Source: a virus
Strand: one strand, 5' to 3'
Length of the DNA stretch: 20,731 nucleotides
Virus record (IMG/VR): IMGVR_UViG_3300025115_000064
Location: 1 to 20,731 of that record
Positions 3,932 to 20,530 of this stretch are shown here, one piece after another. The notes beneath the pieces were generated by a model. The model made no database searches and was not told the origin of the DNA. It worked only from the letters and a program-made list of their open reading frames with translations. The translations under genes and the position numbers were made by a program. Positions within the stretch are counted from its first letter, which is position 1; each line of letters begins with the position of its first letter.

Positions 3932-5269
3932 ATGAAAATCAAAATACAGTCCCCTTTCAAGATCATCAGGGAGAAGTCTATCTCGCTGCCTACCGCCGTC
4001 AAATTAACTGACGGCACTGTTTTTTATACCTGGAATCCTGAGATGCTGGGAGGCAGAGGCACCTACGATGTTAGCATGGTAACCGGTCAAATGAACGCCT
4101 ATTCAGCCTGCGCCCCGCTATGTTCGATTATCAACAAGGAGGCAGACGCGCTGAAGAATGGGCGGTTCTATTTTCTTGACGATAAGGGCAACGAGGTAAA
4201 GCCGGAGCGCAAAGACCTGGGCGCGCTGTTGTACCGGGCTAATCCTATCCAGTCCTTTAAGCAATTCATTGCACAGGTTTATGCGTTCTCGAAGATTCAT
4301 GGCATCTGCTATGTTTTGCCGGTCGCCGGATTCGTTGGTGGTGATGTCAAGTCGATGTACGTGGTGCCTAACTTCATGGTCAAACCGAGATACACGAGGC
4401 GACTATTCCAGCAGACGAGCCTAACGGAGATCATCGAAGGGTATGAGGTGCAGGGGATCGACCGGTTGATATTGCCGAACGAGATGATTGTTTTCCGTGA
4501 TGGTGGGGTACCTAACTTCATGGAATTTGACAGGTATATGCAGCCGATGAGCCGGATGGTACCTGTCCAGGACTCCATTAATTCCGTGATAGCCTCGACG
4601 GATGCCTGGGTGACTATTGCCAAGCGCAAAGGGTTACCGCTGGGAATTATCTCATCCGGCGGGAAAGATGCGACCAGCACCATCCCACTGACACCGACTG
4701 AAAAGGACGAGGTACATGATGAGCTGAACACCGGTTACGGGATGTCCGGAAGCATGAAGAAGTTTATCATCACATCCGCGTCGCTGAACTTCCAGGCTAT
4801 CAGCGTCCCGACGAAAGACCTGATGATCCTGGACGGTATCGAAGCACACAGCCGGATCATCTGTAATGCCTATGGCTATCCGTTCCGTTTGTTGGAATAC
4901 GACACCGGATCGAGCCTGTCGAATGGCGGGGAGGTGAAGGAAGCGCGGAAGACACTCTACGTAGAACAGATCATACCAGACGCGGAAACTATCTGTGATG
5001 TGCTGAATGAATACTTCGGACTTCGACAGTCCAGGCTTTCGGCGGACTATTCGCACCTGGAAATTTTCCAGAAGTCGAAGGAGGAGGGGGCGCGGGCGTT
5101 GCTATCCCTTACCGCCGGACTTGACAAAGCATACCTGAATGGGATCATCACGGCGGAAGAATACCGGATGAGCCTGTCAGAATTGATGAACATTAATCCC
5201 GATGTGCCCTATGGAACGACGTACCACATCACCGCCACTGTCGAAAGAGGAGAAGGCGCGGTTGATTAA
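3932..5269 (+). CDS. Phage portal protein (HK97-like)
   Basis: The 445-aa product has the length, gene position and pattern of HK97-type portals. An N-terminal helix (AYSACAPLCSIINKEADAL) is followed by LLYRANPIQSFKQFIAQVYAF, the region that precedes the clip. A central wing and crown-stem helix follows (VPVQDSINSVIASTDAWVTI), then ITSASLNFQAISVPTKDLMIL and AYGYPFRLLEYDTGSSLSNGGEVKEARKTLY, typical of the C-terminal part of portals. As a 12-mer ring it would form the DNA channel at one capsid vertex and dock the terminase. It directly follows promoter P2. Its final codons overlap a tiny ORF that bridges to the protease gene. Substitution by another ring protein is unlikely. Confidence 0.88.
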   Translation: MKIKIQSPFKIIREKSISLPTAVKLTDGTVFYTWNPEMLGGRGTYDVSMVTGQMNAYSACAPLCSIINKEADALKNGRFYFLDDKGNEVKPERKDLGALLYRANPIQSFKQFIAQVYAFSKIHGICYVLPVAGFVGGDVKSMYVVPNFMVKPRYTRRLFQQTSLTEIIEGYEVQGIDRLILPNEMIVFRDGGVPNFMEFDRYMQPMSRMVPVQDSINSVIASTDAWVTIAKRKGLPLGIISSGGKDATSTIPLTPTEKDEVHDELNTGYGMSGSMKKFIITSASLNFQAISVPTKDLMILDGIEAHSRIICNAYGYPFRLLEYDTGSSLSNGGEVKEARKTLYVEQIIPDAETICDVLNEYFGLRQSRLSADYSHLEIFQKSKEEGARALLSLTAGLDKAYLNGIITAEEYRMSLSELMNINPDVPYGTTYHITATVERGEGAVD

Positions 5270-5339
5270 AGAGAAACAGAAGCAGGTGAAGGAAAGACGA
5301 ATCATCCAGAAGCCTGATCAATATATGCAGGAGTTATGA
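5211..5339 (+). CDS. Tiny highly charged protein bridging portal and protease genes
   Basis: An ATG at 5211 opens a 42-aa frame that overlaps the end of the portal gene in another frame and runs to the TGA at 5337-5339. An upstream ATG at 5202 would add three residues. The product is rich in Lys, Glu, Arg and Gln (PPLSKEEKARLIKEKQKQ, then a helical basic tail ending QYMQEL) and should be one long helix. Its TGA overlaps the protease ATG as ATGA, the usual sign of translational coupling, and without this gene there would be a 66-base untranslated gap in a tightly packed operon. No family recognised; a small scaffold or assembly helper is possible but unproven. Confidence 0.55.
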   Translation: MERRTTSPPLSKEEKARLIKEKQKQVKERRIIQKPDQYMQEL

Positions 5340-6148
5340 TACCTGAATTTGCAACACTGAAAGATAAATTTACATGGCTTCGGGCTAACAAAAGCCTGAT
5401 TGCGATGGCAAAGAAAGCAGCCTTCAAGGTCGCTGATCCGGTATCGTTTCTCAACGTTACGATTGGCGAAGGCGGGACGCTTGAAAAAGCACTGGCCAAT
5501 CCTGGGCTGTTGAACCTGACAGAGTTCCCTGTTGACGTGGTGATCAATACCACTATGATCCGCGATTCACACGATGATGTTCATATCGACGGACTGTGGT
5601 CTAAAAGCCTGAAAGAATCAAAAGGGCTGTATCACTTGCAGGAACACCGGATGGCGTTCGACAAGGTTATCAGTGACAGGGTAACAGCACAAACGAAGTT
5701 GATCGCATGGGGTGAAATCGGATTACCCTACAAAGGTATGACCGAGGCGTTAATGTTTCATTCGGTCGTTGAGAAAGAACGCAATCCATATATGGCAGAA
5801 CAATACGCTAAGGGGCGGGTGAAGAATCACAGCGTCGGGATGCGTTATGTCAAGCTCGATTTGGCGATGAACAGCGACGACAAGTATGATCAGGAAGAGA
5901 AAGCAGTTTGGGATAAGTACATTGATAAGATTGCCAATCGTGAAGAGGTGGAGGAAGATGGGTTTTTCTGGGCGGTCACGGAGGCAAAAGTTATAGAAGG
6001 TTCTGCGGTCTTGGTTGGTAGTAACCAGGCAACACCGACAATAAACATAGGCGAACCGCCTAAATCACTCCAGGCAGCCGATCCGATCACTGCCAGTGAG
6101 CCGGTAAACTGGGCGAAGTTAGCCGAAGCATTAAAAACAAAAAACTAA
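5336..6148 (+). CDS. Prohead (maturation) protease, HK97-like S78 type
   Basis: The 270-aa product lies between portal and capsid genes, the normal place for the capsid maturation protease. Likely catalytic residues are His at 100 or 104 (GLYHLQEHRMAF) and Ser166 in NHSVGMRY, which is the HxSxG-like serine motif of this family. The segment KVIEGSAVLVGSNQATPT near residues 225-242 matches the conserved last strand and loop of prohead proteases. The ~65-residue N-terminal extension before the core is longer than usual, and the C-terminal ~30 residues look disordered. It would cleave the scaffold and the capsid N-terminal domain before DNA packaging. The start overlaps the preceding tiny gene. 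Confidence 0.8.
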   Translation: MIPEFATLKDKFTWLRANKSLIAMAKKAAFKVADPVSFLNVTIGEGGTLEKALANPGLLNLTEFPVDVVINTTMIRDSHDDVHIDGLWSKSLKESKGLYHLQEHRMAFDKVISDRVTAQTKLIAWGEIGLPYKGMTEALMFHSVVEKERNPYMAEQYAKGRVKNHSVGMRYVKLDLAMNSDDKYDQEEKAVWDKYIDKIANREEVEEDGFFWAVTEAKVIEGSAVLVGSNQATPTINIGEPPKSLQAADPITASEPVNWAKLAEALKTKN

Positions 6149-6155
6149 AAGAAAC

Positions 6156-6638
6156 ATGAAAAAACTGATAACATTAATTTGTATTGTTCTCGTCGCCGGC
6201 ATGGCAATGGGACAACAGCGGTTAACGTTCACACCGACATCGAACGACTCGATTGTCGGGGCTGCAACTAAATACTGCACGCTCACGAACCCGATCACTC
6301 AGAAATGGACGGGTTGCATCGAGGTATACATTACTCCGTCGGTCAGCAACTCCGACTCTACACATGTCTGGATTGAAGGCAGTCAGAACGGATCGACGTG
6401 GTATAAGGTCACAACGTTGAACGCGCCGGATAAAGTAACCGGAACGTATTACACGGCTAATGCTGTAACGACCGCAGCCGGATACGATTACAAGGGACGC
6501 ATGGGAACGACCGCAGCCGGGTGGCTATGGACTACCAACGATTACATCCAGTACCCATATTTGCGGGTAGCAGTTCAGCATTTCATAGCAGCAACATCTG
6601 TTAAGATCACGCGAGCGCAGATTTACATCAAGAAGTAA
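6156..6638 (+). CDS. Secreted-looking β-rich protein in the head-decoration slot
   Basis: The 160-aa product begins with a clear Sec signal peptide: MKKL, a hydrophobic core (ITLICIVLVAGMA), and a probable cleavage after MG before QQRLTFTP. The mature part is Thr/Ser-rich and β-strand-like, ending with a run of alternating strands (VKITRAQIYIKK). There is no lipobox Cys. Its place between protease and major capsid genes is where many phages keep a head decoration protein, but a true head protein should not carry an export signal. A 15-base direct repeat (AACGACCGCAGCCGG at 6467-6481 and 6506-6520) gives two TTAAG segments 13 codons apart. Alternatives are a periplasmic or surface protein made late in infection. 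Family not recognised. Confidence 0.65.
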   Translation: MKKLITLICIVLVAGMAMGQQRLTFTPTSNDSIVGAATKYCTLTNPITQKWTGCIEVYITPSVSNSDSTHVWIEGSQNGSTWYKVTTLNAPDKVTGTYYTANAVTTAAGYDYKGRMGTTAAGWLWTTNDYIQYPYLRVAVQHFIAATSVKITRAQIYIKK

Positions 6639-6659
6639 TTAACTCAAAAAGTAAAGAAC

Positions 6660-7862
6660 ATGGAAAATATCACATTAGAAGGACGTGAACTGGAGGTATA
6701 CAATGCTATCAAGCAGATGGTAACAGAAAAGACAGCCGGACAAATCACGGAAGCGAAGATGATCGAAACGATCAACGCAAAATTAAAGGATTTGAAGGTC
6801 GACATTTCAGAAGACCCTGCATTTGTTAACCTCAAAGAAACCCTGGGAACAATGGGTATCACCGTCAACAAGCTAAGCGAGACAGGGCGGAAGCCATATA
6901 AGACCGTTAAGCAGCAGATCGTCGAACAACTGGAATCACGTAAGGCAGAATGGGATCGCTTCAAGAGGCGTGAACAGGACGGATTCACGTTGAATCTAGA
7001 CTTCACCGGTAAGGCAGCAGCCGAGATGCTATACTCGACACATGGCTACGATTCCGCGAGGGAATTCGTGGAACCAGGTTGGACGGATATAGCAAGGCAG
7101 CAGCCCTCTGTTATCCAGGTGTGTGACTACGGACAGACCGATTCAGTCAGTTACTCTTATATTCAAAAGATCAATCAGGAAGGGAACGCAGCGATTACCG
7201 CCAACGGAACCATTGCCCCGCTGATTGACTTCGAGACCGACAAAGTTACCTCTACCGCTGTGGATGTTCCTGCCAGGATCGAGATCAGCGAGGACTTTTT
7301 GATGGACGTTACCGGCATGGCTGACATGATTCAGGGTGAACTAAGATACCAGGTCGATAAAGCCTGTGATGACCTGATTGTCACTTTGATTGCAGCCGGA
7401 ACCGCTTTCACGCAGACAGGCATTGAGGTTGTGAGTCCTAACACGTTGGACTGCATCCGTGCAGCAGCAACACAGATCGAAGCTACCGGATTTGGCACAG
7501 CCAACGCAGTCCTGATGAACCCTGTTGATTTCATGAACATGGTTTCCAGCAAGGACAACGATGCGAACTATGTCATGCTTCCTATTGTGACCTTCAACGG
7601 AACGGTGATCGATAACCTCCGCGTTATCAAGACTACCCAGGTCAGCGCCGGCTACATCGCCGTGATGGATGGGATGAAAGTCAAGGTCAAGGAATACGGA
7701 CAGTATGAGGCCGGATTCGGTTACACCGGAACGAACTTCCCCGAATACGTTGTGACTCTCAGGGGTCGCAGGCGTCTGCACCGCTTCATCAAGTCGAATG
7801 AAGCCGGATCGGTTGTCTATGATGCTATCGCTGACATTCAGACAGCTATCACCGCAGCCTAA
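6660..7862 (+). CDS. Major capsid protein (HK97-like fold)
   Basis: The 400-aa product has the length and layout of an HK97-type capsid precursor. Residues 1 to about 110 are charged and helical (a δ-domain or scaffold-like part ending with WDRFKRREQDG) and are the likely target of the prohead protease. The mature-like part starts near FTLNLDFTGK and includes FVEPGWTDIARQQPSVIQV, a long central helix region (RYQVDKACDDLIVTLIAAG), NAVLMNPVDFMNM and a C-terminal segment ending VTLRGRRRLHRF, typical of the spine and P-domain elements. It should self-assemble into the icosahedral shell. The coding sequence is followed by a G+C-rich hairpin, which may protect this abundant message. Confidence 0.88.
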   Translation: MENITLEGRELEVYNAIKQMVTEKTAGQITEAKMIETINAKLKDLKVDISEDPAFVNLKETLGTMGITVNKLSETGRKPYKTVKQQIVEQLESRKAEWDRFKRREQDGFTLNLDFTGKAAAEMLYSTHGYDSAREFVEPGWTDIARQQPSVIQVCDYGQTDSVSYSYIQKINQEGNAAITANGTIAPLIDFETDKVTSTAVDVPARIEISEDFLMDVTGMADMIQGELRYQVDKACDDLIVTLIAAGTAFTQTGIEVVSPNTLDCIRAAATQIEATGFGTANAVLMNPVDFMNMVSSKDNDANYVMLPIVTFNGTVIDNLRVIKTTQVSAGYIAVMDGMKVKVKEYGQYEAGFGYTGTNFPEYVVTLRGRRRLHRFIKSNEAGSVVYDAIADIQTAITAA

Positions 7863-7868
7863 TCAATC

Positions 7869-7898
7869 GGGGCGGGAGGTCAATACGCTGACCGCCCC
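7869..7898 (+). terminator. G+C-rich stem-loop after the capsid gene
   Basis: GGGGC (7869-7873) plus GGTCA (7878-7882) can pair with TGACCGCCCC (7889-7898) around the loop ATACGC, leaving a 4-base bulge (GGGA) on the 5' side. Only two T residues follow, so it is not a strong intrinsic terminator. A partial terminator or an mRNA-stabilising hairpin for the capsid message is likelier. Confidence 0.5.
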
Positions 7899-7921
7899 TT
7901 AACAAATAAAAACTCAACGTT

Positions 7922-8095
7922 ATGTCAAAACAAGTAAAAGCAATCAATCTTCATGAGCGGGTTACCGTCTACCTGACAGCGGACAATCCTTACCTGCATC
8001 ACGGGCGCAAAGCCGGCGACGAAGTACAGGTATCTCCGTTCGTCGCTGAAAAGGGTATCAAGCTGGGACACTATTCCAAATCGAAACCGAAGTAA
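7922..8095 (+). CDS. 57-aa basic protein between capsid and connector genes
   Basis: An ATG at 7922 opens a 57-residue frame (MSKQVKAINLHERVTVYL... to HYSKSKPK) that ends at TAA 8093-8095, five bases before the next start. The composition is basic and the ends are Lys-rich; a short central part (NPYLHHGRKAGDEVQVSPFVAEK) resembles the compact SH3-like small proteins often found directly after capsid genes. The tight spacing on both sides and a coding-like codon pattern support a real gene. The function is unknown; a head-completion accessory is only a positional guess. Confidence 0.65.
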   Translation: MSKQVKAINLHERVTVYLTADNPYLHHGRKAGDEVQVSPFVAEKGIKLGHYSKSKPK

Positions 8096-8099
8096 AACA

Positions 8100-8600
8100 A
8101 TGGCTGTCATAGATTCATCATACTTCGTCGGCGAGATCAGCATCCCGAACACAGCAGGCAGCGGGGCGGTGGTAACTGCCACGCTGGCAAAGCTGAACCG
8201 GCTGATCAGCATCTATGAAAAAGACTATCTGACTAAACTGCTCGGAGATACTTTGTATGATGAATTCATCGCAGCGTTGGAGGTTCCTGATGACTGGGCT
8301 ACTGACTTACTGGCTGAGTTGCGGGATGATACTTTGAAACTATCGCCTGTCGCTTACTATGTCTATTACTTCTGGCTCCGCGATTCGGTTACTTATGTGA
8401 CCTCGAACGGACAGGCGGAAGGCAATAACGAGAATGCAGTCAGCTCCTCCCCTGCCCTGCGTATGTCTGAATCTTATAACCGGATGGTAAGGATGACGGA
8501 AGAAGTCCTGGACTATATCGGCGATGAGCAGGCAACGTTCCCATCGACTCCGGAAACGGAGTACACCTGGCTAAGAAAAATTAACACCTTCAACATATGA
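8100..8600 (+). CDS. Head-tail connector (gp6-like adaptor)
   Basis: The 166-aa, mostly helical product has the pattern ISIYEKDYLTKLLGDTLYDEFIAAL (residues about 37-61) followed by LSPVAYYVYYFWLRD (about 80-95), matching the small helical connectors that follow the capsid gene in Bacteroidetes phages and HK97 gp6-like adaptors. The protein would form a ring below the portal and link head and tail. Its stop overlaps the next ATG by four bases. Assignment rests on sequence pattern and on position together. Confidence 0.65.
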   Translation: MAVIDSSYFVGEISIPNTAGSGAVVTATLAKLNRLISIYEKDYLTKLLGDTLYDEFIAALEVPDDWATDLLAELRDDTLKLSPVAYYVYYFWLRDSVTYVTSNGQAEGNNENAVSSSPALRMSESYNRMVRMTEEVLDYIGDEQATFPSTPETEYTWLRKINTFNI

Positions 8601-9439
8601 TGCAACTGCCGGTCATATATGAATTATTCGAGGACGTGGTTTCCGAAGTTTCGGACGCCCTGGGCTACGATGTTCATTTCCGGCATGGTCATATGTTGGA
8701 GGTCGTTAACCAGGTCAAGGATATGATGATCGATCCGGATTCATCGAAACGCTATCCGCTTATAGCTTTGAGGCACGACATCAAGCAGAATCCCATCAGG
8801 GATGCTGTGGAAATAGACTGCAAGCTATACATAATCACCCTGTCCGATCCTCATTATACCGCGACAGAACGCTATGATAATGTTTTCATCCCTACGCTCC
8901 GCCCCATCTTTGCGGAACTGGTCAACCAGATTGCACGGTCGCAGTATTTCGATCAGGCAACAATTGACGAGGTGATGGAAACAGTGACGATCTACGAGCG
9001 TTTGTTCTGGGGCAATGAGGGGGTGATGGGCAACGATGCGCGGATATTCGCCGACTGGATCGATTGCATAGAGGTAGACATCAGCAAGCTGGTAGCTTAT
9101 CAGAATTGTGGCATTAGCGGGAAGGTTCCCAGGATAGTGGCAGCGTTCACGGACACATCCGGACTTTATTCTTTTATTGTCTGGAACTGTAAAATGGCTG
9201 ATCCGACTGGTTATCAAAATGATTTCTGGCTTAATTATGGGGGCAACAGAGATAATCTTAACTCTGCCATACAGGTCGCGGATAATGTCTTTCTGCTTGA
9301 CCATCATGGATCACCTTTGCAGCCGGTTGACATTATCACACTTGACATTGATCAGGGCAATATAGCATCCTACGCAGGAAGGCTGTATGCAGGCGTAACC
9401 GGTCAACCTGTTACTAACAATGTGTTACTGCCAGAGTGA
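8597..9439 (+). CDS. Neck or tail-terminator-like protein
   Basis: The 280-aa product begins with a ~170-residue α/β part (YELFEDVVSEVSDALGYDVHFRHGHMLEVV..., then YPLIALRHDI, IDCKLYIITLSDPHYTATERY and a helix IFAELVNQIARSQYF), a layout common to tail-completion and terminator proteins that cap the tail tube. The C-terminal ~110 residues, from about GISGKVPRIVAAF, look β-rich and Ig-like, so the protein appears to be a fusion of a neck domain with a surface domain. It is coupled to the connector gene by a 4-base overlap, and its 3' end overlaps the next small ORF by 20 bases. I am confident of a head-tail junction role by position, less so of the exact function. Confidence 0.5.
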   Translation: MMQLPVIYELFEDVVSEVSDALGYDVHFRHGHMLEVVNQVKDMMIDPDSSKRYPLIALRHDIKQNPIRDAVEIDCKLYIITLSDPHYTATERYDNVFIPTLRPIFAELVNQIARSQYFDQATIDEVMETVTIYERLFWGNEGVMGNDARIFADWIDCIEVDISKLVAYQNCGISGKVPRIVAAFTDTSGLYSFIVWNCKMADPTGYQNDFWLNYGGNRDNLNSAIQVADNVFLLDHHGSPLQPVDIITLDIDQGNIASYAGRLYAGVTGQPVTNNVLLPE

Positions 9440-9596
9440 ACAACGAAAGCTAATCCGGATGATCGAAAGGGAGTGGCGACAGGAGGGTAAGCGGTGGGCG
9501 TTGGTGAAGAACAAAAGCAACCGGCTGGAAACGATACCTGAAAGCAGCTTACCGATTGACAACGTTGAAGTGGTTTATAAATTAAAAACAATCTAA
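9420..9596 (+). CDS. Small basic protein before the tail tube gene
   Basis: A frame of 58 codons runs from an ATG at 9420 to TAA 9594-9596; a second ATG at 9459 would give 45 residues. The sequence is MCYCQSEQRKLIRMIEREW from the first start, then a basic helix and a short β-like end (NVEVVYKLKTI). It fills the otherwise empty gap between the neck gene and the tail tube gene. I favour neither start strongly; the first overlaps the neck gene by 20 bases, which is usual in this operon. The family is not recognised. Confidence 0.5.
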   Translation: MCYCQSEQRKLIRMIEREWRQEGKRWALVKNKSNRLETIPESSLPIDNVEVVYKLKTI

Positions 9597-9607
9597 ATAA
9601 CAGAAAA

Positions 9608-10483
9608 ATGAATAACTGTGGATCAATAGTAGCAGCCGGCATAGGCAACTGTAAGCAGCACCTAAAACGTTTCAAGGCGATGATCATTCAGACCAAAGGA
9701 ACGGTTTTCACCGCTGCCGAACTTGCAACGACCGCTGCGTTAAAGACCGATCTTTCTGCGGATGCTGGCATTACAGCATTGTATATCCCATTATCAGGTT
9801 ACACCCAAAACACGGACGCTCCGAACGTTGTAACCGGTGGCATAGGAACCAAGAGCGTATATGACGATCAGATTCCTTCCGGCGTGGCTTTCTGCGATGT
9901 CGGATTTGCTGATTACAAAACGCTCTGGGGTATGAATAACACGGTTGTCGATGTGATGTTCATCACAAAGGATGGCAACTGGGTATTGACACCGACCAGC
10001 ACGGGCGGATTCAAAGGTTTTCGCTGTGAGCTGTATTCAGTTCAGGACTTCCCGACCTTCGAGAATCCGAACGAGGCACACCCATTGAATGTGTTTTTCA
10101 AAGACGTGGAAGAATTTACCAACATGGTAGTGATGCCTATGAACTTCTCTTCCTCGGAAATTGAAGACCTGGTACCGGTTGGGCTTGACATAGTCCAGAC
10201 CGCTGACTACGCTGCCGGTGATGCTGTTGTTAAGGCAACACTTAGGGGATCTTCCACCGGTAAAGCCGGATTAACTGACTGGGATATTATCGATACGAAC
10301 GTTCTCGATCCTGGTGTATCCGACTCCGACGATGGTGGCGGGGTCTATACGCTGACATTGCAAAAGGATGCCGGCGGGACACCTGAAGACCTTGCAGCAG
10401 GTGAGTACATCACCGTTCAGGGCAAGCTGGTAGCAGCAACCTATGTTACCTACCTCACCCCGCCGATCAAAATCTACGGTTAA
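9608..10483 (+). CDS. Major tail tube protein, probable
   Basis: The 291-aa product is rich in β-strands and Gly/Thr/Asp, and is the last gene before a strong intrinsic terminator, fitting an abundant tail tube subunit. Residues about 60-200 form the probable tube domain (e.g. VDVMFITKDGNWVLTP, FKGFRCELYSVQDFPTF). The region from about residue 190 (PVGLDIVQTADYAAGDAVVKATLRG) to the end resembles an Ig-like C-terminal domain of the kind that decorates tail tubes. Its place upstream of the tape-measure cluster is the expected one. The assignment is from position and composition rather than a sequence signature. Confidence 0.55.
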   Translation: MNNCGSIVAAGIGNCKQHLKRFKAMIIQTKGTVFTAAELATTAALKTDLSADAGITALYIPLSGYTQNTDAPNVVTGGIGTKSVYDDQIPSGVAFCDVGFADYKTLWGMNNTVVDVMFITKDGNWVLTPTSTGGFKGFRCELYSVQDFPTFENPNEAHPLNVFFKDVEEFTNMVVMPMNFSSSEIEDLVPVGLDIVQTADYAAGDAVVKATLRGSSTGKAGLTDWDIIDTNVLDPGVSDSDDGGGVYTLTLQKDAGGTPEDLAAGEYITVQGKLVAATYVTYLTPPIKIYG

Positions 10484-10517
10484 TTGATGCCGATGTTAGC
10501 CCTTTTGAAATAGGGTC

Positions 10518-10543
10518 AAAGGGGGTGAAAAGCCCCTTTTTTT
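10518..10543 (+). terminator. Rho-independent terminator after the tail tube gene
   Basis: AAAGGGG (10518-10524) pairs with CCCCTTT (10533-10539) around an 8-base loop, followed by a run of seven T residues (10537-10543). It sits 11 bases before the next gene, and no TAnnTTTG promoter is visible in that gap, so it probably acts as a partial terminator that lowers expression of the downstream tail genes relative to capsid and tube. Confidence 0.8.
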
Positions 10544-10553
10544 AATCAAAACG

Positions 10554-10982
10554 ATGGGAAAACTGCATGAGTTAAGGCTGAGGTCTAATAGGTTTGTCGA
10601 GAACATTAACCTGTATGTTCAGGACGTGATCGATGACAATCAGGCATTGCTTGACCTTAACCGGCAACAGTTGAAGGAAGAACATAAAACCAAAAAGGAT
10701 AAATTGATCAGTCCGGAATACAGCAAAACGACAGCGATGTTAAAAGGTTTTCGCACGCCTGACTTATACGACACCGGCGAGATGCAACGAACTTTAACTA
10801 TCGCTGCTACCAATGACGGGAACTACTACATTGATCCGACGGTGGACTACGGTAACAGCCTGATTGAAAGATACAGTGAGGACATTTTTGGAATCGCTGA
10901 AAGCAAACAGGGGAAAGCAAAATCAATCACAACAAAACTATTAGCCGAGATTTACCGTAAAATCGTAATGCCAAATGCTTAA
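10554..10982 (+). CDS. Conserved phage tail-region protein, function unknown
   Basis: The 142-aa product has a helical, charged N-terminal half (RFVENINLYVQDVIDDNQALLDLNRQQL) and then FRTPDLYDTGEMQRTLTIAA and YYIDPTVDYGNSLIERYSEDIFGIAE, a pattern I associate with small tail-completion or HK97 gp10-like proteins. The DLYDTGEM... and DIFGI motifs look like the conserved parts. The gene follows the terminator with no visible promoter and overlaps the next gene by 8 bases. A tail assembly role is inferred from position only. Confidence 0.5.
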   Translation: MGKLHELRLRSNRFVENINLYVQDVIDDNQALLDLNRQQLKEEHKTKKDKLISPEYSKTTAMLKGFRTPDLYDTGEMQRTLTIAATNDGNYYIDPTVDYGNSLIERYSEDIFGIAESKQGKAKSITTKLLAEIYRKIVMPNA

Positions 10983-11604
10983 ACCGATCCACACCTGCAA
11001 GTCAATGACCGTCCGCCAATACTCACAATTCGAGGCGGGCGATGCTAAGGCTTTGCAGCGTTTTAGATGGATCCCTGCAAGCTGGTTTCCGGATGATCGG
11101 GCTGCGTTCGTACAGGAATTTACGGAGTTGTTCAATGCGGACTCGGACGTGATGGATAAGTCCTGGGAACAGTTGAACGATCAGAATCGGATTATGTTAT
11201 TGCAGGCACTGGCAGAGGCAATATACACGCATACGGTTACCAGGATTGAAATGAAGATGATAGCTGAAAAAGTAGGCTATCAGATGAAGGATGATGAGCG
11301 GTTAACCTGGTACCTGGAGCGCGTGAAGGAGATCACCGGAACGGAGTTGAAAACGCTGGATGACATTGTGATATTCCGCAACGAGGTTCAGCGAAAGATT
11401 GACAAGTATAATCAGAAGTACAGCAGACCGATAAAGGAGAAAAACACAACGATCCTGGAACTCTTCACCGCCTGTTGCCGGATTATGGAGGTCACTCATG
11501 ACTATACACGGATGACCTTGTGGGAGTTTGCACAGTTCAAACGACAGGCGGAGGAACACAGTCGAAGATTAGAAGCAGTATACAACAAGAATAAAGCGGA
11601 ATGA
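10975..11604 (+). CDS. Pre-tape-measure protein, possible tail assembly chaperone
   Basis: The 209-aa protein is largely α-helical and charged, lying directly before the tape measure gene where gpG/gpGT-type chaperones are expected. The N-terminal part (MTVRQYSQFEAGDAKAL, then RWIPASWFPDD) and the C-terminal segment (YTRMTLWEFAQFKRQAEEH) look like two small packed helical units. I found no slippery heptamer with a second frame extending it, so the classical -1 frameshift pair is not apparent. The stop is one base before the tape measure ATG. Chaperone is a positional inference. Confidence 0.5.
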   Translation: MLKPIHTCKSMTVRQYSQFEAGDAKALQRFRWIPASWFPDDRAAFVQEFTELFNADSDVMDKSWEQLNDQNRIMLLQALAEAIYTHTVTRIEMKMIAEKVGYQMKDDERLTWYLERVKEITGTELKTLDDIVIFRNEVQRKIDKYNQKYSRPIKEKNTTILELFTACCRIMEVTHDYTRMTLWEFAQFKRQAEEHSRRLEAVYNKNKAE

Positions 11605-11605
11605 C

Positions 11606-14011
11606 ATGGCAGAAATTACCGAAATCATAGCGAAAGAGGCGATCAAAGACATTGAGGCAGCGGACAAAGCGTTGACAGCCTTTGATGAGGGTATTATGCA
11701 GGTCATTACCCATCTCGGACAACTCAACCAGGCAACCGGAAAGGGTGGGATTAAGGAGTACAATCAGGCTTTGAAGGAACAAAACCAGGTACAAAAGGAA
11801 GCTATCAAGGCGACAAAGGACAGGGAGCGGGCGGAGGCGAAGGCAGCACAGGCTGAGGCAAAGGCAGCGGAGAAAGTCAGGCAGCACAACGAGGCACTGG
11901 CATTGAACGTTAAGACTGTCGACGAGGCGAAACGACAGTTAAAGGCATTGACAATTGAGCGCGATAAGGCTTCGACCAGCATGGGCAAGCAATCCCAGGC
12001 TGTGAAGGATTTGAACGCTAAGATGCAACAGAACACAGAATTCATCCGCGCGAATGGCACCGCTGCGGAGAAACAGAGGATGAACATAGGTAATTATGCG
12101 AGTGCTCTGAATGGTGTAAAGGGTGCTGCTATTGCTGTAATGGGTGCTCTTGGGATCACCGCTGGACTGGCAGGCGTGTTGAAAGTAGTTCAGGGCGCAA
12201 TAGCAACCAGCAACGCAGCAGCGGACGAATTAGAGCGGACAATGGGAGGAATGAAGGAGCAGGCTAATTATTTCGGGCGGGCTTTAATGACATTGGATTT
12301 CAGCAAATTCCGATCCAACCTGAAAGCTGCAAATGATGAGGGACGCCGGTACATATCGACATTACAGGACATTGAGGACTTAAAGCTATCACTGGCATTG
12401 CAGAAGGATGATATAGAATTACAGATCATCCAGCAACGGACAATTGCGAAGGACAGGCGTAATGATTTGAAGGACAGGGAGGCAGCAGTAGAAGAAATTA
12501 TTAGACTGGAAGAACAGAAGTTGACAAAGACGTTGGAGGTTTCCCAGCTGGATTTGGATAATTACCTGCAAAATACAGAGTTCAAAACGAAGGCAGATCG
12601 GGCGTTGTTGATGGATATGATAAAAAATTCCGGAGATTACATTAATCAGATCAAAAAGGGTGCAGCGTTGGTAAGGAAGATCAACAAGGAAACTCAGACA
12701 GAAATGGTTACCCAATATGGTATCCAGATTATTGTAGACACGAAGGCGCGGGAAAAAGCGTTCGCCTCGCTGAATGAAGAACAGAAAAAGCAGGTATTGT
12801 ATTATAAGACTGATGCAAAACTGTTAGGCAAACAACGTGAAGAGATTACAAAACTCGCACAGGTGAACAATGCAGCTACCAGGGAAATGGCAGAGGGGAA
12901 GGAATCGTTGGTAAGATTGCAAAACAGGCTGTATAATGAATTGATCAAAGAGGAGGAGGCAACCGAAAAGGCAGCAACCGCAACCGTAAAGCAGCAGACC
13001 ACTGTTGAACAATTAACCGGAAGAATATCAGCCTTAAAGAAAGAACTGGAAAACTCATTGCTGGTTACCGGCACCGCTCCTGAAGGTTTGGTAAGGGAAT
13101 TGATTGGATCTGAGGGTGAACTGGAAAGAGTAAAGAATCAGATGGATGAGATACTGGCTCGATACCAGCAGATCGTCAATATTGACATACCGGAAAGTCC
13201 GGAGTGGATGCCGGAAGAGATATTAACACCGGATTCAGCTGGTCCCAAACCGGCTGAGGAATACATCAGCAAAGGTATTAACTGGAGTCGTGAAGACACT
13301 TTGGCAGCAACGGAAACGGTAACAGATGCAGCGATGACGATGATCAGGAACGCGGATCAGGCTGCATTTGACAATAAGATGATGTTGCTGGAAAAAGAAA
13401 AAGAGGCGAAGTTAAGCAATACCAAGCTAACCGAAAAGCAGCGGGCGAAGATCGAAGAGGACTACCGAAAGAAGGAAGCCAAGTTGAAGGAACAGCAATT
13501 CAGAAAACAGAAGGCAGCGGACATCATCCAGTCGATAATAAATACCGCGCTGGGAGTTACAAAAGCATCTCCAAATGTTGCACAGATGATTTTAGCCGGC
13601 ATAGCTGGAGCAGCCCAGACCGCGATCATTGCAGCCCAGCCGATCCCGAAATTCGACAAAGGAACCATGAGAACTCCGTCGGTCTTCATCGCCGGTGAAA
13701 ACCGTCCGGAATGGATGATCAGCCCATCCGGAGCGGTGAGCCTGGTAACAAGACCGACTATGTTTAAGAATATGGCAGGGGCAACTGTAATAGGTGGGGA
13801 GGAGACCGAACGAATGATGAAGGCTGGCATTGCTCCGACCAGCGACATGCGACCGGACATAAGGGCGATGAAATCAGAGATCGTCCGCGCGATAAGGGAT
13901 AAGAGGGAGCTCCACATTACCGGCAGCGGGTCAAGGATAACTGAAAGGGCAGGAAACTACTACAAAGAATATTACAACCGACAGGTACAATGGGCAGGCA
14001 GGAAGAACTGA
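11606..14011 (+). CDS. Tail tape measure protein
   Basis: The 801-aa product is long, helical and rich in Lys/Glu/Ala coiled coil (residues about 30-160 and 420-560). It has a hydrophobic stretch (GAAIAVMGALGITAGLAGVLKV, near residues 171-193), and near the end a second one (ADIIQSIINTALGV, then AGIAGAAQTAIIAAQPIPKF), followed by SVFIAGENRPEWMISPSGAVSL, all typical of tape measures. Using the known rule of about 0.15 nm per residue, it would set a tail of about 120 nm. No lytic or peptidase domain is visible. Its 3' end overlaps the next gene by 22 bases. Confidence 0.88.
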   Translation: MAEITEIIAKEAIKDIEAADKALTAFDEGIMQVITHLGQLNQATGKGGIKEYNQALKEQNQVQKEAIKATKDRERAEAKAAQAEAKAAEKVRQHNEALALNVKTVDEAKRQLKALTIERDKASTSMGKQSQAVKDLNAKMQQNTEFIRANGTAAEKQRMNIGNYASALNGVKGAAIAVMGALGITAGLAGVLKVVQGAIATSNAAADELERTMGGMKEQANYFGRALMTLDFSKFRSNLKAANDEGRRYISTLQDIEDLKLSLALQKDDIELQIIQQRTIAKDRRNDLKDREAAVEEIIRLEEQKLTKTLEVSQLDLDNYLQNTEFKTKADRALLMDMIKNSGDYINQIKKGAALVRKINKETQTEMVTQYGIQIIVDTKAREKAFASLNEEQKKQVLYYKTDAKLLGKQREEITKLAQVNNAATREMAEGKESLVRLQNRLYNELIKEEEATEKAATATVKQQTTVEQLTGRISALKKELENSLLVTGTAPEGLVRELIGSEGELERVKNQMDEILARYQQIVNIDIPESPEWMPEEILTPDSAGPKPAEEYISKGINWSREDTLAATETVTDAAMTMIRNADQAAFDNKMMLLEKEKEAKLSNTKLTEKQRAKIEEDYRKKEAKLKEQQFRKQKAADIIQSIINTALGVTKASPNVAQMILAGIAGAAQTAIIAAQPIPKFDKGTMRTPSVFIAGENRPEWMISPSGAVSLVTRPTMFKNMAGATVIGGEETERMMKAGIAPTSDMRPDIRAMKSEIVRAIRDKRELHITGSGSRITERAGNYYKEYYNRQVQWAGRKN

Positions 14012-16986
14012 TAGCAGCGAACGCGGCGACGATGCCGAAACGATACCGGTTTACGCTGAGTAATCCGGCATTTGGCACGCTGGTATTGCGTTATGCACCG
14101 GACGGATGGAAGGATGATGAGTATAGTTTCACCCGAAACATGCGGTATTTCGGAGTGTTCAGGAAGTTCGCGCAAAAGGAATTGAAGTTCATCAAGGATG
14201 GGCGGGACTACCTGAAAGACTGTTACGAGGCGTTCGGAGTCAATGCTCCGGTGACTATCAAGGTTGAATACCTCTACAATACCGGCGTATGGGTAACCAG
14301 GTTTGAGGGTACTATCGACTATTCGACCTATAAGATCAACGATATATCCTGTGATGTTCAGGTCAAGGATGGAGGGTTTACGGATTTGCTTCTGTCCCGC
14401 GCTGCCACACCGGTAAACATCCTGGAATACCGATCGATTGACGGGGATGCTATCACACCGGCGGAGTTGAAATCGGTGATAATCCCTGATGTGTATATCG
14501 GGAAGAATGGGTATTTATCATGGTCCTCTGGTATGTTTTTCAGGTTTTCTGATTCGCATGTGGTGCCTATAATGATTAGATGGGGAGAGTTCACAGAACT
14601 GCAAAATCCAGATTATGAAAACAATAAGATTGATGATATTGATGGATGCTTTTTTGCTAATGCTATTACAGATTATGATAATACAGAAATAGTAATATCT
14701 TTGAGAGTTCAAAATGTCACAGATATTTTAGGCTTTACAGTGACATTAAAACAATATGATGGTAATGATTGGGTAGTAGTAGATTCTGGACAGTTTGAAT
14801 ATGATTATTATATATACTGGAAATATACTTCAGTGGTAAGTGTTAATATAGCAGCAGGGGACTACCTCATATTAGAGGTATTAGCCGATAGCGTTTTGTG
14901 TCAATTAGACTATATTGCTGCAACAGTATCGATGATTTACGTTGAAACTCAAATCGATTCTGTGACCGTTTCGGCGGTTGATTACCGCGAGGCATGGCGG
15001 GCGGTGGTGGCTAAGTTGACCGGACAGAACAATGCGATTTCATCCAGCATCTTCAACGATATTCACCTGGGGGTGATCCTATCGACACGCTACATCCGAC
15101 AGATCGAAGGGACTAATCCAGGAATTGCCTTCACGCTGGAAGACCTGTTCAATTCGCTGTCGATTTTCAACATCGGAATAGGTGTTAATAATGGAGTGCT
15201 GGAAATCGAACGGATGTCATATTTTTTCAATCCTTATGTTATCATCGACCTTTCAGACCGGATAAATGAATCCCTTATTGAAAAAGCTGTTATCCCTGAA
15301 CTCTATGCCAACAGGTTAAAGTTCGGATTCAACACCTCGGAATATGGGTATCTCGGCGGTATCTTTGAATTCAACACCGCGTCGGAATGGTCGACTGTGA
15401 TCAAGCCCATCAATCAGGAATTCGCGATCGTATCACCGTTCCGCGCCGACAGCACCGGTATTTACCAGGCTGTCGAAGAGGCGACGAATCCGGATAATGA
15501 AGTGGATCAGGAAAGCGATGCAGACCTGTTCCTGTTGGATGTCCAGACCGATGAGGTGGAGGACTACAAAGCAAAAACTGATGAGGAATTCGATTTCATT
15601 TCGGGATCATTAAAAACCAACGACCTGTTTAACCTGGACTATACACCGGCGCGGATACTTCGCCGGTGGGGAAGCTACATCCGTGCAATCCTGCATCAAA
15701 ACCTTACATCGTTTCTCCGCTGGCAAAAAAGCGACAAGAACAGCACGCTTGAATCACAGAAGACCGGCGAGGGTGTGATCGTCGAAAACTCCGATATAAG
15801 GGTCGATGAGCTGGAAGTTAACCGCTGGATCCCGGAAGCCTATACCGTCCAGGTACCTTTAAAGGAAACCGACCTTCAGGCTATCGAAGCGAATCCATAC
15901 GGGATCATCAAGCTGTCGGATACTAAGTATGGCTGGATACTGGATTATAAGAGCAAAAATGAAAACCGAACGAGTGACCTCCGACTATTGCGGGTCAACC
16001 TGAAAGCGGTCACACCGATACCATATAAGGAACTTGGTTTCGGAAAACTTTACAACTGGCACGCTGTCAGTGATATAGCTATCATAGTCAATAGTACCGG
16101 GTTAACTCCTTTTGATTGGCGAGTGGCAACGAAGGATGATTTTGATGAGTTGATAGAGTTCTGTGGTGGCAGCTCGGTTGCCGGTGGGATGTTGAAGGAA
16201 ACCGGATTTAAACGCTGGCTGTCGCCGAACACAGGGGCGGTTGATACTTATGGGTTTAGGGCAGTGGGTGGTGGACAGCGTAATGGGGCAGATGGTTCGT
16301 TTTCGGAAATGAAAATAACCGGATATATATGGAGTAACGAATTATCAAACATACCAGGGGAATATTGGTTATTAGCGGTATATAGCGACAATGCAACGGG
16401 GGATAATCCTACATTAATCCCAGAAACAGGCTCAGCTGTCCGCCTATGCCGAAACTCCAAACTCCACACCGGAGCGCGCCGGACATATACCGGCAACGAT
16501 GGAAGGGTCTATAATACGATAGTAATCAATGGCATCGAATGGACTATTGAAAACCTGAAAGAAACGCTCTACAAATACAACAAGTTTTCAATGCAGTTGA
16601 ATGGCGAGCTACCTTCTGCCGGTAATATCACTTGGGTGGTAATGTGTACTGGATATCCAACTGCATACATTACTATTGCGATTAATGGCGGGACTACAAA
16701 TGAGGATGTTTATGATGATATCATTGCAAACAGCACCTATCAGGTATTGGCAGCAGCAGACGTTTTCAGGGTTTTATTCGATTCTGATACTGATACTATT
16801 TGGTGTTTGTTCAAGTTACCGCCTTTTGTGGATGCAATGATTTCAGGCGGTGACCCTGGAGAAGTATATTTCAATTATCCGGTATCTGTCAGCAACGAAA
16901 TCCCGGAAGTGCAGGACGGGACCGACTGGAGCAACCTAACGACCGGCGCCTGGTGCCATTACGATAATAACAGCCAACACGAATAG
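13990..16986 (+). CDS. Large tail-tip/baseplate protein with a FISUMP-like lectin domain
   Basis: The 998-aa product follows the tape measure, where distal-tail and tip proteins are found. Residues 1-175 and about 320-680 are a β-rich structural scaffold. Residues about 175-320 (nt 14515-14945) are an A+T-rich inserted β domain. Residues 681-822 match the FISUMP-type C-type-lectin-like fold: FGKLYNWHAVSD, WRVATKDDFDELIEF, GGMLKETGFKRW, GFRAVGGGQRNGADGSFS, then SAVRLCRN. Residues 833-860 (YTGNDGRVYNTIVINGIEW...) look like the FISUMP N-terminal half, so the two halves are in swapped order. The last ~140 residues are β-rich. It probably binds host surface glycans or protein at the tip. The gene overlaps the tape measure by 22 bases. 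Confidence 0.65.
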   Translation: MGRQEELIAANAATMPKRYRFTLSNPAFGTLVLRYAPDGWKDDEYSFTRNMRYFGVFRKFAQKELKFIKDGRDYLKDCYEAFGVNAPVTIKVEYLYNTGVWVTRFEGTIDYSTYKINDISCDVQVKDGGFTDLLLSRAATPVNILEYRSIDGDAITPAELKSVIIPDVYIGKNGYLSWSSGMFFRFSDSHVVPIMIRWGEFTELQNPDYENNKIDDIDGCFFANAITDYDNTEIVISLRVQNVTDILGFTVTLKQYDGNDWVVVDSGQFEYDYYIYWKYTSVVSVNIAAGDYLILEVLADSVLCQLDYIAATVSMIYVETQIDSVTVSAVDYREAWRAVVAKLTGQNNAISSSIFNDIHLGVILSTRYIRQIEGTNPGIAFTLEDLFNSLSIFNIGIGVNNGVLEIERMSYFFNPYVIIDLSDRINESLIEKAVIPELYANRLKFGFNTSEYGYLGGIFEFNTASEWSTVIKPINQEFAIVSPFRADSTGIYQAVEEATNPDNEVDQESDADLFLLDVQTDEVEDYKAKTDEEFDFISGSLKTNDLFNLDYTPARILRRWGSYIRAILHQNLTSFLRWQKSDKNSTLESQKTGEGVIVENSDIRVDELEVNRWIPEAYTVQVPLKETDLQAIEANPYGIIKLSDTKYGWILDYKSKNENRTSDLRLLRVNLKAVTPIPYKELGFGKLYNWHAVSDIAIIVNSTGLTPFDWRVATKDDFDELIEFCGGSSVAGGMLKETGFKRWLSPNTGAVDTYGFRAVGGGQRNGADGSFSEMKITGYIWSNELSNIPGEYWLLAVYSDNATGDNPTLIPETGSAVRLCRNSKLHTGARRTYTGNDGRVYNTIVINGIEWTIENLKETLYKYNKFSMQLNGELPSAGNITWVVMCTGYPTAYITIAINGGTTNEDVYDDIIANSTYQVLAAADVFRVLFDSDTDTIWCLFKLPPFVDAMISGGDPGEVYFNYPVSVSNEIPEVQDGTDWSNLTTGAWCHYDNNSQHE

Positions 16987-18217: not shown

Positions 18218-20530
18218 ATGGCACATTTGACAAATCTCGAGGCGGTTAACGCTCTATGCGTTTCCAGTGGTGGCTCCGGCGGTCACCTGTCAATGTTGCC
18301 GGCGTTGAATGAACTGTGCGCATTACAGGGAGTGACAGCCGGACATTTGGAAAACCTTTCGGCTCTGAATGCCATTGACACCGGATTAGGTGGGGATGGT
18401 GATCATCTTACTAATCTGGATGCGCTGAATAGTATCAGTCTATTGATCGGTGGTACTGGTGGCTATACATCTGTTTTGCCAGCATGGCAGGAGATTGAGA
18501 GTATAGGGTTTGATCAGCCATACGATCCCGAAGGTGATCCCGACTTTTTCGCTCACCTGCAAGGTTTGATAGGAAGCGAGAATCCTGCCGATCCTGATTA
18601 TGGAGTTTACTACATGGAGGACATTGTAGGAACGAATAACTGCAAACTTGTAAATTCGCTGTGTAATACTTTTGCATTTGTCAATGGGAGCGGCGGGGAT
18701 AGTTATGTACAGTTCCAAAGTAGAGCGTCAACCATCAATCTCAGCAGTACGGTTGTGACGACATACAAGTTGAAAATGAAATTAGATAATCTGACACAAG
18801 CTGTCGACGCAACACACCTGAATAAAGTCATAAGCAATGGCGGAACGACCAATTTTGGTAAGGGCTTTTTTGTATTTCACGATTACGTTGATAGTACGTG
18901 CATTTTCAAAGTTCAGATCAGCAACGGTACAAGATATATGCAGAAATCATTTACAACAGCCTTAGATACCGACTGGCATTTATATGAGTTTTCGTGGAAT
19001 CCAACAACGATGATTTTTACAATTACAATTGATGGCGAAGCAGAATCCGTTGCTTGGACAGCACCATTTACAACTGACAGCAATAGGCTTTATGAACATA
19101 CGAGTCAGTTTCTGCTGGGTAATAACAATGGATGCGGGTATTTTACCTGTGCTTATTTTGACGTTTACCGTGACGGATCACGTGTGTTTAATGTGCCTTT
19201 CCAGGTTAATTCAAGTATAGCCAATCAAGTATATGACAGAATCGCGGGGGGTTATTATGATATTCGTAAAACCACATTAGCCTATCAGGATGTATTTCCC
19301 GGAAATGTGCTGAATGGCTATGACCTGTATACCTATTTAACTGTGACATATTACGTTCCGTTGCTTACAACCGGAGAAAGCATATCATCGGTTAATTTGT
19401 CTGGCTACGCAAAAATAGCAACATACCCAGCGGGCGATTACCTGAATAATTGCGAAACGGATGTTGAAATCAACGGAACGGACTACACCTATACGGAACT
19501 GACTTCGTACCCATTTAGCAAAAACTTCAGCAAGTTCACCGCACTGAAGATTACCGACATCATTGCACACACAGCGACAGCAACACCGGCGACACGTGAA
19601 AAAATATTTGAATATCTGGGATTTACAATATTTAATATGTCCGGTTTTATTGGGGATAGTATCATGGCAGGAATCGCTGCCGACTATGATCTGCTTGCAG
19701 CAGGTTATGATGATTCTATCACGGCAGAAAAGGTATGGGAAATTAAGTTACAGCAATGGCAAGACGTGACAATATATAACTCTAAGCAACCCATACTGCA
19801 AACAGCAGTTATGACAGGAACGATCACCTCAAACACTTCATCTGCAACGGTTACAGGATCAGGGACAGCGTTTTTAACGGATTTGCAGGTTGGTAATTTA
19901 GTAATGAAGAACGACGCCGGTATTACTGTAATTGGAAGGGTACAAAGCATTGAAAGTAATACAAGCCTGACTCTGATGGCTAACGCTGTAAGCACCAATG
20001 CAGGCATCGCTTGGCGCAAAGACACTTATCCGAGATCGTTTTGTCCTTTATTGGGTATGGCTAAAAACAGAAATAATGGTCGAAATGCCGAGTACGCTGT
20101 TGGCGGTACTTTATTATCCGGTAATTGGCTGACAACTGAAAACTTAAACGTACTTTGGAAATCAAACATGTTGGCAGCGTTCAGAGCTGCAATGGAGTTG
20201 GACTTCTATCCACATTGGACAGGAATGTATGTTTGCTTAGGAACGAATGATGCAGAAACAGAGGCGAAACGTGATGCCATTGCTACTAATGCAGCAGCCT
20301 TAATAAATGATTTAAGGACATTTTCGGGAGAGGATATGCCGTTTCATTGGCTATTGCCAAGATCTAATGATGCGGACAGGATTATCGTTCGGAATTTACT
20401 GCTTGCCATGACAACTGACGACCTGTATTTCTACGAAAGCGACGACCTAACATACGCCGACAGCGTTCATCCTGATCATGCAGGCACTATCGCAATCGGT
20501 GAAATGTTTTACCTTGAAAACTTCCTATAA
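18218..20530 (+). CDS. Tail fibre with N-terminal repeats, LamG-like domain and SGNH/GDSL esterase domain
   Basis: The 770-aa product reads as a modular receptor-binding fibre. Residues 3-97 are four 20-residue repeats (HLTNLEAVNALCVSSGGSGG type) plus a partial fifth, probably the tail attachment part. Residues about 165-330 resemble a concanavalin/LamG-like β-sandwich (YKLKMKLDNL, then WHLYEFSWNPTTMIFTITIDG). From about 475 to the end is an SGNH hydrolase: block I GDS (Asp480-Ser481), block III GTND (Asn677) and block V DSVH (Asp748, His751), giving a Ser-Asp-His triad. A small β domain (about 534-600, ATVTGSGTAFLTDL...) is inserted between blocks I and III. It would deacetylate or de-esterify host surface polysaccharide during adsorption. 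The following gene starts on its stop (TAATG). Confidence 0.8.
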   Translation: MAHLTNLEAVNALCVSSGGSGGHLSMLPALNELCALQGVTAGHLENLSALNAIDTGLGGDGDHLTNLDALNSISLLIGGTGGYTSVLPAWQEIESIGFDQPYDPEGDPDFFAHLQGLIGSENPADPDYGVYYMEDIVGTNNCKLVNSLCNTFAFVNGSGGDSYVQFQSRASTINLSSTVVTTYKLKMKLDNLTQAVDATHLNKVISNGGTTNFGKGFFVFHDYVDSTCIFKVQISNGTRYMQKSFTTALDTDWHLYEFSWNPTTMIFTITIDGEAESVAWTAPFTTDSNRLYEHTSQFLLGNNNGCGYFTCAYFDVYRDGSRVFNVPFQVNSSIANQVYDRIAGGYYDIRKTTLAYQDVFPGNVLNGYDLYTYLTVTYYVPLLTTGESISSVNLSGYAKIATYPAGDYLNNCETDVEINGTDYTYTELTSYPFSKNFSKFTALKITDIIAHTATATPATREKIFEYLGFTIFNMSGFIGDSIMAGIAADYDLLAAGYDDSITAEKVWEIKLQQWQDVTIYNSKQPILQTAVMTGTITSNTSSATVTGSGTAFLTDLQVGNLVMKNDAGITVIGRVQSIESNTSLTLMANAVSTNAGIAWRKDTYPRSFCPLLGMAKNRNNGRNAEYAVGGTLLSGNWLTTENLNVLWKSNMLAAFRAAMELDFYPHWTGMYVCLGTNDAETEAKRDAIATNAAALINDLRTFSGEDMPFHWLLPRSNDADRIIVRNLLLAMTTDDLYFYESDDLTYADSVHPDHAGTIAIGEMFYLENFL
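18224..18508 (+). repeat. 20-residue tandem repeats in the fibre N-terminus
   Basis: Four units of 60 bases (residues 3-22, 23-42, 43-62, 63-82) plus a partial fifth (83-97). Consensus is HLxNLxALNxLCxxxGGxGG. The DNA copies are diverged, so the repeats are old and selected at protein level. Confidence 0.8.

Follow-up and report, generated by a model that had tools for sequence, protein, structure and literature searches.

The C-type-lectin-like fold is used by phages, and by diversity-generating retroelements (DGRs), for variable receptor binding. In this fold the first strand runs alongside the last. Two domain families are of concern here: FISUMP, recognised by the profiles PF09603 and TIGR02145 (Fib_succ_major), and Lcl_C/DUF1566 (PF07603), which includes the C-terminal domain of Lcl. 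DGRs are known to target both FISUMP and DUF1566 (PMC4159848, PMC8143477), and a C-type-lectin-like fold is ascribed to the Lcl C-terminal domain (PMC11162425). In canonical FISUMP domains, the N-half of the sequence comes before the C-half. No description of a permuted FISUMP or Lcl_C domain was found in the titles, abstract openings and passages searched (including passages of PMC7824862, PMC4159848, PMC8143477 and PMC11162425), in which subscription journals are thinly represented. The permuted FISUMP domain discussed here is apparently an undescribed form of a known domain. To our knowledge, natural circular permutants common to many sequences are uncommon.

The window, by which we mean the whole stretch of DNA analysed, is a complete virus record of IMG/VR, 20,731 bases long, in which genes for terminase, portal, major head and tape-measure proteins follow in that order. 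The features relevant to the tail tip are as follows.

11606-14011, directly upstream of the hub gene: probable tape-measure gene (tape-measure PHROG, E 1.9e-7)
13990..16986, + strand: tail-tip (hub) gene, 998 aa (open reading frame; PHROG 15220 match)
14971..15957, + strand: part of the tail protein common to other phages (PHROG 15220 match, relatives)
16039..16452, + strand: FISUMP C-half, placed first, aa 684-821 (PF09603, TIGR02145 and our own C-half HMM, positions 1-130 of 131)
16453..16491, + strand: linker of 12-13 aa bridging the original C- and N-termini (HMM boundaries)
16492..16575, + strand: first part of the FISUMP N-half, aa 835-862 (HMM positions 1-28 of 56)
16576..16893, + strand: insert of 106 aa within the N-half, with no family match (Pfam, tblastn)
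16894..16971, + strand: second part of the FISUMP N-half, aa 969-994 (HMM positions 31-56), with the stop 4 aa later

Residues 328-656 of the tail protein match PHROG 15220, a 'virion structural protein' (E 2.8e-51), and this part is also found in L134-L136 (loci are cited by L numbers), in Tenacibaculum phage JQ, in a Leeuwenhoekiella phage and in MD05. Elsewhere in the window, positions 1512-2330 encode a protein of the Mom family (PF25680, E 3.6e-48), whose namesake is the DNA-modification protein of phage Mu, and the gene beside it (901-1533) has a ParB_N match under the cut-off. A probable tail fibre of 770 aa is encoded at 18218-20530, with a PHROG tail-fibre match at aa 533-599 and a weakly sialic-acid-esterase-like C-terminus (SASA, E 4.5e-4, under the cut-off).

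A preliminary description of this DNA had recognised the C-terminal half of a FISUMP domain in the hub protein and had placed the N-terminal half after it; both statements are borne out. Residues 684-785 align with positions 50-155 of PF09603 (E 3.5e-16; 60.4 bits against a cut-off of 33.9), and the C-half also matches positions 46-156 of TIGR02145 (E 1.7e-13; 51.7 bits against a cut-off of 41.65). The N-half motif TGNDGRVYNTIVINGIEWTIENLKETLY lies downstream of the C-half. Our own N-half HMM matches the protein in two parts, at HMM positions 1-28 (E 4e-8) and 31-56 (E 7e-10), and the second part, EIPEVQDGTDWSNLTTGAWCHYDNNSQHE, is its extreme C-terminus; the last 27-28 residues are 45-71% identical to canonical FISUMP domains in four other phage contigs. 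The segment originally proposed, 16029-16575, does contain FISUMP halves, but its coding frame begins at 16030, the frame from 16029 having stops. Its extent also fell short of the swapped domain, as it missed both the 106-aa insert and the final ~30 residues that complete the N-half. The insert stretch (16582-16896) matched no Pfam family at E 0.01 and no phage by tblastn at E 1; N-half inserts at somewhat later positions (HMM ~36-47) are present in L018, L028, L030, L035 and L105.

We consider it probable that the C-terminus of the window's tail-tip protein is a complete, circularly permuted FISUMP domain, whose C-N order, completeness and end point are seen directly, as is the like arrangement in many phages. 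Relative to the canonical form, the old N- and C-termini would be joined via a linker of about 13 aa, which the fold should allow because its first and last strands adjoin, and the chain would be opened instead within the few residues that normally connect the N-half to the C-half, so that the domain begins (F)GKLYNWHAV and finishes ..YDNN. Both halves would then fold jointly as one C-type-lectin-like domain, situated at the distal tail, where it would serve as a swappable module in contact with the host surface. A tandem duplication followed by loss of the outer halves is the probable origin of the permuted form, a classical route to which the tandem canonical repeats in L046 and L048 point.

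Separate HMMs for each half were used to scan the ORFs of 127 fetched loci and the window, and ORFs were counted as non-redundant if no two had identical last 120 aa, near-copies such as L078/L104 being counted separately. A FISUMP-half match was found in 151 ORFs (116 non-redundant). The C-half is followed by the N-half and then by a stop 1-12 aa later in 77 of the 151 (52 of the 116 non-redundant), and the C-half is the final match in 49 (41 non-redundant); as the loci were fetched partly using permuted queries, these and like counts are not prevalence figures. The remaining 25 ORFs (23 non-redundant) are either open at the 3′ end, as holds for nine ORFs assigned to neither end class, or fit neither class for other reasons; 14 of the 15 non-redundant ORFs of the latter kind contain a C-N unit followed by 13-1053 aa lacking another C-half. 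L001 has the same order and end point as the window, and in phage MD05 the permuted domain makes up nearly all of a 209-aa protein (RPMD05_88). In 74 other complete permuted units the C-to-N linker measures 7-19 aa (median 13). Permuted chains open at the N-to-C connector, whose length in canonical units is 6 aa in 22 cases out of 38. In L019/L020, positions 4018-9401 hold an array of consecutive genes, each with a C-terminal permuted FISUMP domain. No additional annotated phage came up in a tblastn search with the MD05 domain, and PHROGs gave no family for any of six single queries, five of them permuted (proteins or domains) and one a canonical protein.

Cellular genomes served as a control. 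A profile of permuted domains matched 80 of 198 Bacteroidota genomes, and among the best 30 loci 29 were canonical (in one of them, L161, with the halves split over two adjacent ORFs) and one was permuted (L153, the L051 gene), despite a query that favours permuted domains. In the phylum of a Falkowbacteria bin, 2 of 192 genomes matched; in the bin itself one pilin-like protein is permuted (L139, which is L053) and the other loci with two halves start with the N-half. A profile search of genome contigs gave 16 loci, four of them with a C-N unit (L050, L051, L052 and L053), which is internal in L052. L050 (5215-6669, Nanoarchaeota bin) carries its permuted FISUMP domain at the C-terminus and has, by our reading, a pilin-like N-terminus; that of L051 reads as lipoprotein-like. 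The permuted domain of L053 (5458-6642) is also C-terminal, in a pilin-like protein that matches the prepilin model TIGR02532 (E 2.7e-8).

Structure prediction was applied to relatives of the window's domain. For the permuted L015 domain, modelled with AlphaFold2 from 13 permuted rows, the best of five models reached a pLDDT of 83.1 and a pTM of 0.83, pLDDT falling to 56.0 across the five; these are monomer models, which are also compatible with halves exchanged between subunits. The top VIA match of the L015 model is the Lcl C-terminal domain (8q4e; Z 4.8, rmsd 2.5, 82 residues), in which L015 residues 8-140 alone (the C-half) align to chain residues 309-401; the second is the B. ovatus protein 4eps (Z 3.2 over 7-140). 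The canonical L032 domain (pLDDT 70.4, pTM 0.73) aligns from residue 12 to 195 with 8q4e chain residues 285-401 (Z 7.4, 96 residues), and also matches CarF (Z 8.4), Bd2740 (Z 7.3), Mtd (1yu4, Z 6.4) and snake C-type lectins (Z ~6). VIA cautions that a Z under 8, as in the modest Lcl match of L015, may reflect no more than a common arrangement. If L015 is a permutant, a sequential aligner should recover its C-half alone, as it does, while covering most of the length of canonical L032. Two viral models in BFVD match permuted L015 over 210 and 227 columns (TM 0.86 and 0.83), compared by structure alone. Foldseek found nothing for the L015 model in the PDB at E ≤ 0.001, and sequence searches for a solved FISUMP structure found none that was credible. 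From the predicted folds of these relatives, we infer a C-type-lectin-like fold for the window's domain.

The same arrangement of halves could be read in other ways. The C-half and N-half might be leftovers of two adjacent repeats, (N1 C1)(N2 C2), rather than one folding unit, or might pair across the subunits of an oligomer. Canonical tandem repeats do occur in phages, with five FISUMP copies in L046 and three in L048, and Lcl is a trimer (PMC11162425). Against this, order and end point are fixed in 52 non-redundant ORFs and in the 209-aa protein that is little else, the C-to-N linker varies within the narrow range given above, and the best L015 model is a single compact fold. We regard remnants of tandem repeats as unlikely and disfavour them for the fixed end point, the near-stand-alone copies and the compact model. 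Far less probable still is a DGR target with adenine-directed changes in 16254-16450, the stretch that the preliminary description had singled out as a possible variable region rich in NNY codons. NNY codons make up 27 of 66 (41%) there, below the gene-wide 521 of 997 (52%), and 903 of 932 sliding windows have at least as high an NNY content. As that description had itself noted, the window has neither a reverse transcriptase (RT, PF00078) nor a template repeat: no RT was found in the 20.7-kb record, and a scan of 134 sequences for A-biased repeats of at least 50 nt, which did recover pairs in L052, L128 and L129, gave none in the window. Among 102 records searched, three have an RT (two cellular genomes and the L093 contig); in the set of 67 chosen loci this search covered 54, the others being L054, L055, L095, L097, L107, L109, L113, L114, L116, L120, L123, L125 and L126. 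Each of the three RT-bearing records holds a permuted FISUMP gene as well, and in two cases a DGR shares its contig (L052; L093 with L129), but the variable repeats of the DGR-like pairs found (L052, again as L132; L128; L129) sit elsewhere, in genes that carry no FISUMP half. That of L052 lies in the neighbouring gene (9343-10995), those of L129 are ~22 kb away from the permuted FISUMP gene of L093, and neither half of FISUMP was matched in any ORF of L128, L129 or L132. Nor did excess variation in the domain appear between two diverged pairs of relatives: between L134 and L136 the divergence is 16.7% for the C-half, 16.0% for the N-half and 16.3% for the rest, and between L078 and L104 it is 0 of 381 positions for the C-half and 9.0% beyond the domain. 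The sole difference in 8,696 aligned bases of L019 and L020 does fall in a C-half, in a pair that, like the remaining pairs compared, is 99.65-100% identical and so carries little information. With neither an RT nor an A-biased repeat found in this 20.7-kb record, low NNY and no excess variation in relatives, diversification of this region finds no support, although an RT or a template could lie elsewhere in the phage's genome. The DGRs themselves are a Bacteroidales one in L052 (10868-12351; VR, TR and RT), near a gene with an internal permuted FISUMP domain, and one on the L129 virus contig (2396-3100), where a single template accompanies two variable repeats located in two small genes. Weak repeat pairs in L011 and L012 (exactly 75% bias, 8 mismatches) were taken for chance.

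A circularly permuted domain thus remains our preferred reading, within which the number of permutation events is a separate matter. The trees are compatible with one main event. In a quick tree of 113 units, built without L060, L090 and any unit having an incomplete half, the permuted/canonical label needs three changes, at least two of them forced by starred branches, against a mean of 31.1 for shuffled labels. The window falls among canonical rows there (SH-aLRT 96*), and the smallest starred set holding it consists of 20 canonical rows and the window. Since both halves find their nearest counterparts in canonical FISUMP domains of phages, with a top identity of 45% to canonical L046, the window's permutation may have been an event separate from that of the other phages, a reading compatible with the preferred one and to which we give somewhat less than an even chance. 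It is opposed by a careful tree of 69 units, made without ten rows removed by name prefix (long in the quick tree) and every second remaining permuted row, which needs a single change (support 44/93) and in which the window's nearest rows are permuted; the window is moreover a long branch.

A second family shows the same reversal. The Lcl_C/DUF1566 halves are reversed in eight of eight non-redundant phage-contig proteins having both halves, and ORFs of L040 and L048 have the Lcl_C C-half alone, at the ORF end. A search of Bacteroidota with the Lcl_C N-half matched 25 of 296 genomes, and all 30 loci examined, some of them overlapping, have the normal order; tblastn with the same half found no further annotated phage. 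Reversed Lcl_C domains are nested within the FISUMP N-half in L018 (aa 370-524) and L028 (aa 138-290), lie inside the FISUMP C-half in L010 (aa 247-403) and near the start of the permuted FISUMP domain in L001 (aa 349-499), the exact joints in the last two being our own reading of the sequence.

The common part of the hub protein is followed by varied C-termini in different phages. In L134 and L136 these comprise a SpaA-like domain (tested on L134) and a permuted FISUMP domain, in L135 a weaker SpaA-like match and another domain, and in L070 and L082 a permuted FISUMP domain; the hub gene of phage JQ stops where the common part stops, and MD05 encodes hub and permuted domain in separate genes. 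Such varied C-termini on a conserved hub argue for a swappable host-contact module. The permuted FISUMP domain is, to judge from its position and the fold of its relatives, most likely a receptor-contact or display module on this swappable tail-tip C-terminus. In L078 and L104, permuted FISUMP domains that are near-identical (0 of 381 and 2 of 189 differences) lie in flanks that have diverged by 9%, which suggests recent module exchange.

Opening FISUMP and Lcl_C at the connector would set both ends side by side at a new site, so that a domain could either hang from a C-terminus or be nested in another. More tentatively, and with the balance of probability against it, we propose that phages keep C-type-lectin-fold domains in permuted form, FISUMP and Lcl_C having been permuted separately and in parallel, as a plug-in format for tail C-termini or for slotting into other such domains (L001, L010, L018 and L028), which would turn a different surface to the host; permuted FISUMP would also have spread to a small number of surface proteins in cells (L050 and L053, both pilin-like, and the lipoprotein-like L051).

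In the permuted proteins tested, the best alignment of Pfam and NCBIfam profiles covers one half alone, so that the permutation is easy to miss. Once recognised, it completes a class of tail modules in phages and marks the true ends of the domain for expression and structural work. Permuted domains also provide a natural experiment on what chain ends and display orientation mean for a binding domain.

Compared with known systems, the window's protein resembles Mtd and other variable C-type-lectin-fold proteins of DGRs in its phage tail location and probably in fold (to judge from canonical L032 against 1yu4), and differs from them in that no RT, template repeat or NNY excess was found in the window, its relatives likewise showing no excess variation. 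The Lcl C-terminal domain (DUF1566, PF07603; 8q4e) is the best structural match of the permuted relative L015 and is reversed in phage copies too, but belongs to another sequence family than FISUMP, and its cellular copies keep the normal order (30 of 30 loci). Closest is FISUMP itself (PF09603, TIGR02145): both of its halves are recognisable in the window, the C-half alone scoring above the curated cut-offs, and the differences are the reversed halves and the 106-aa insert in the N-half. Since the order in the window is C-N, with the stop 4 aa past the N-half, instead of N-half before C-half, we file its domain as a permuted variant of FISUMP and not as a canonical member.
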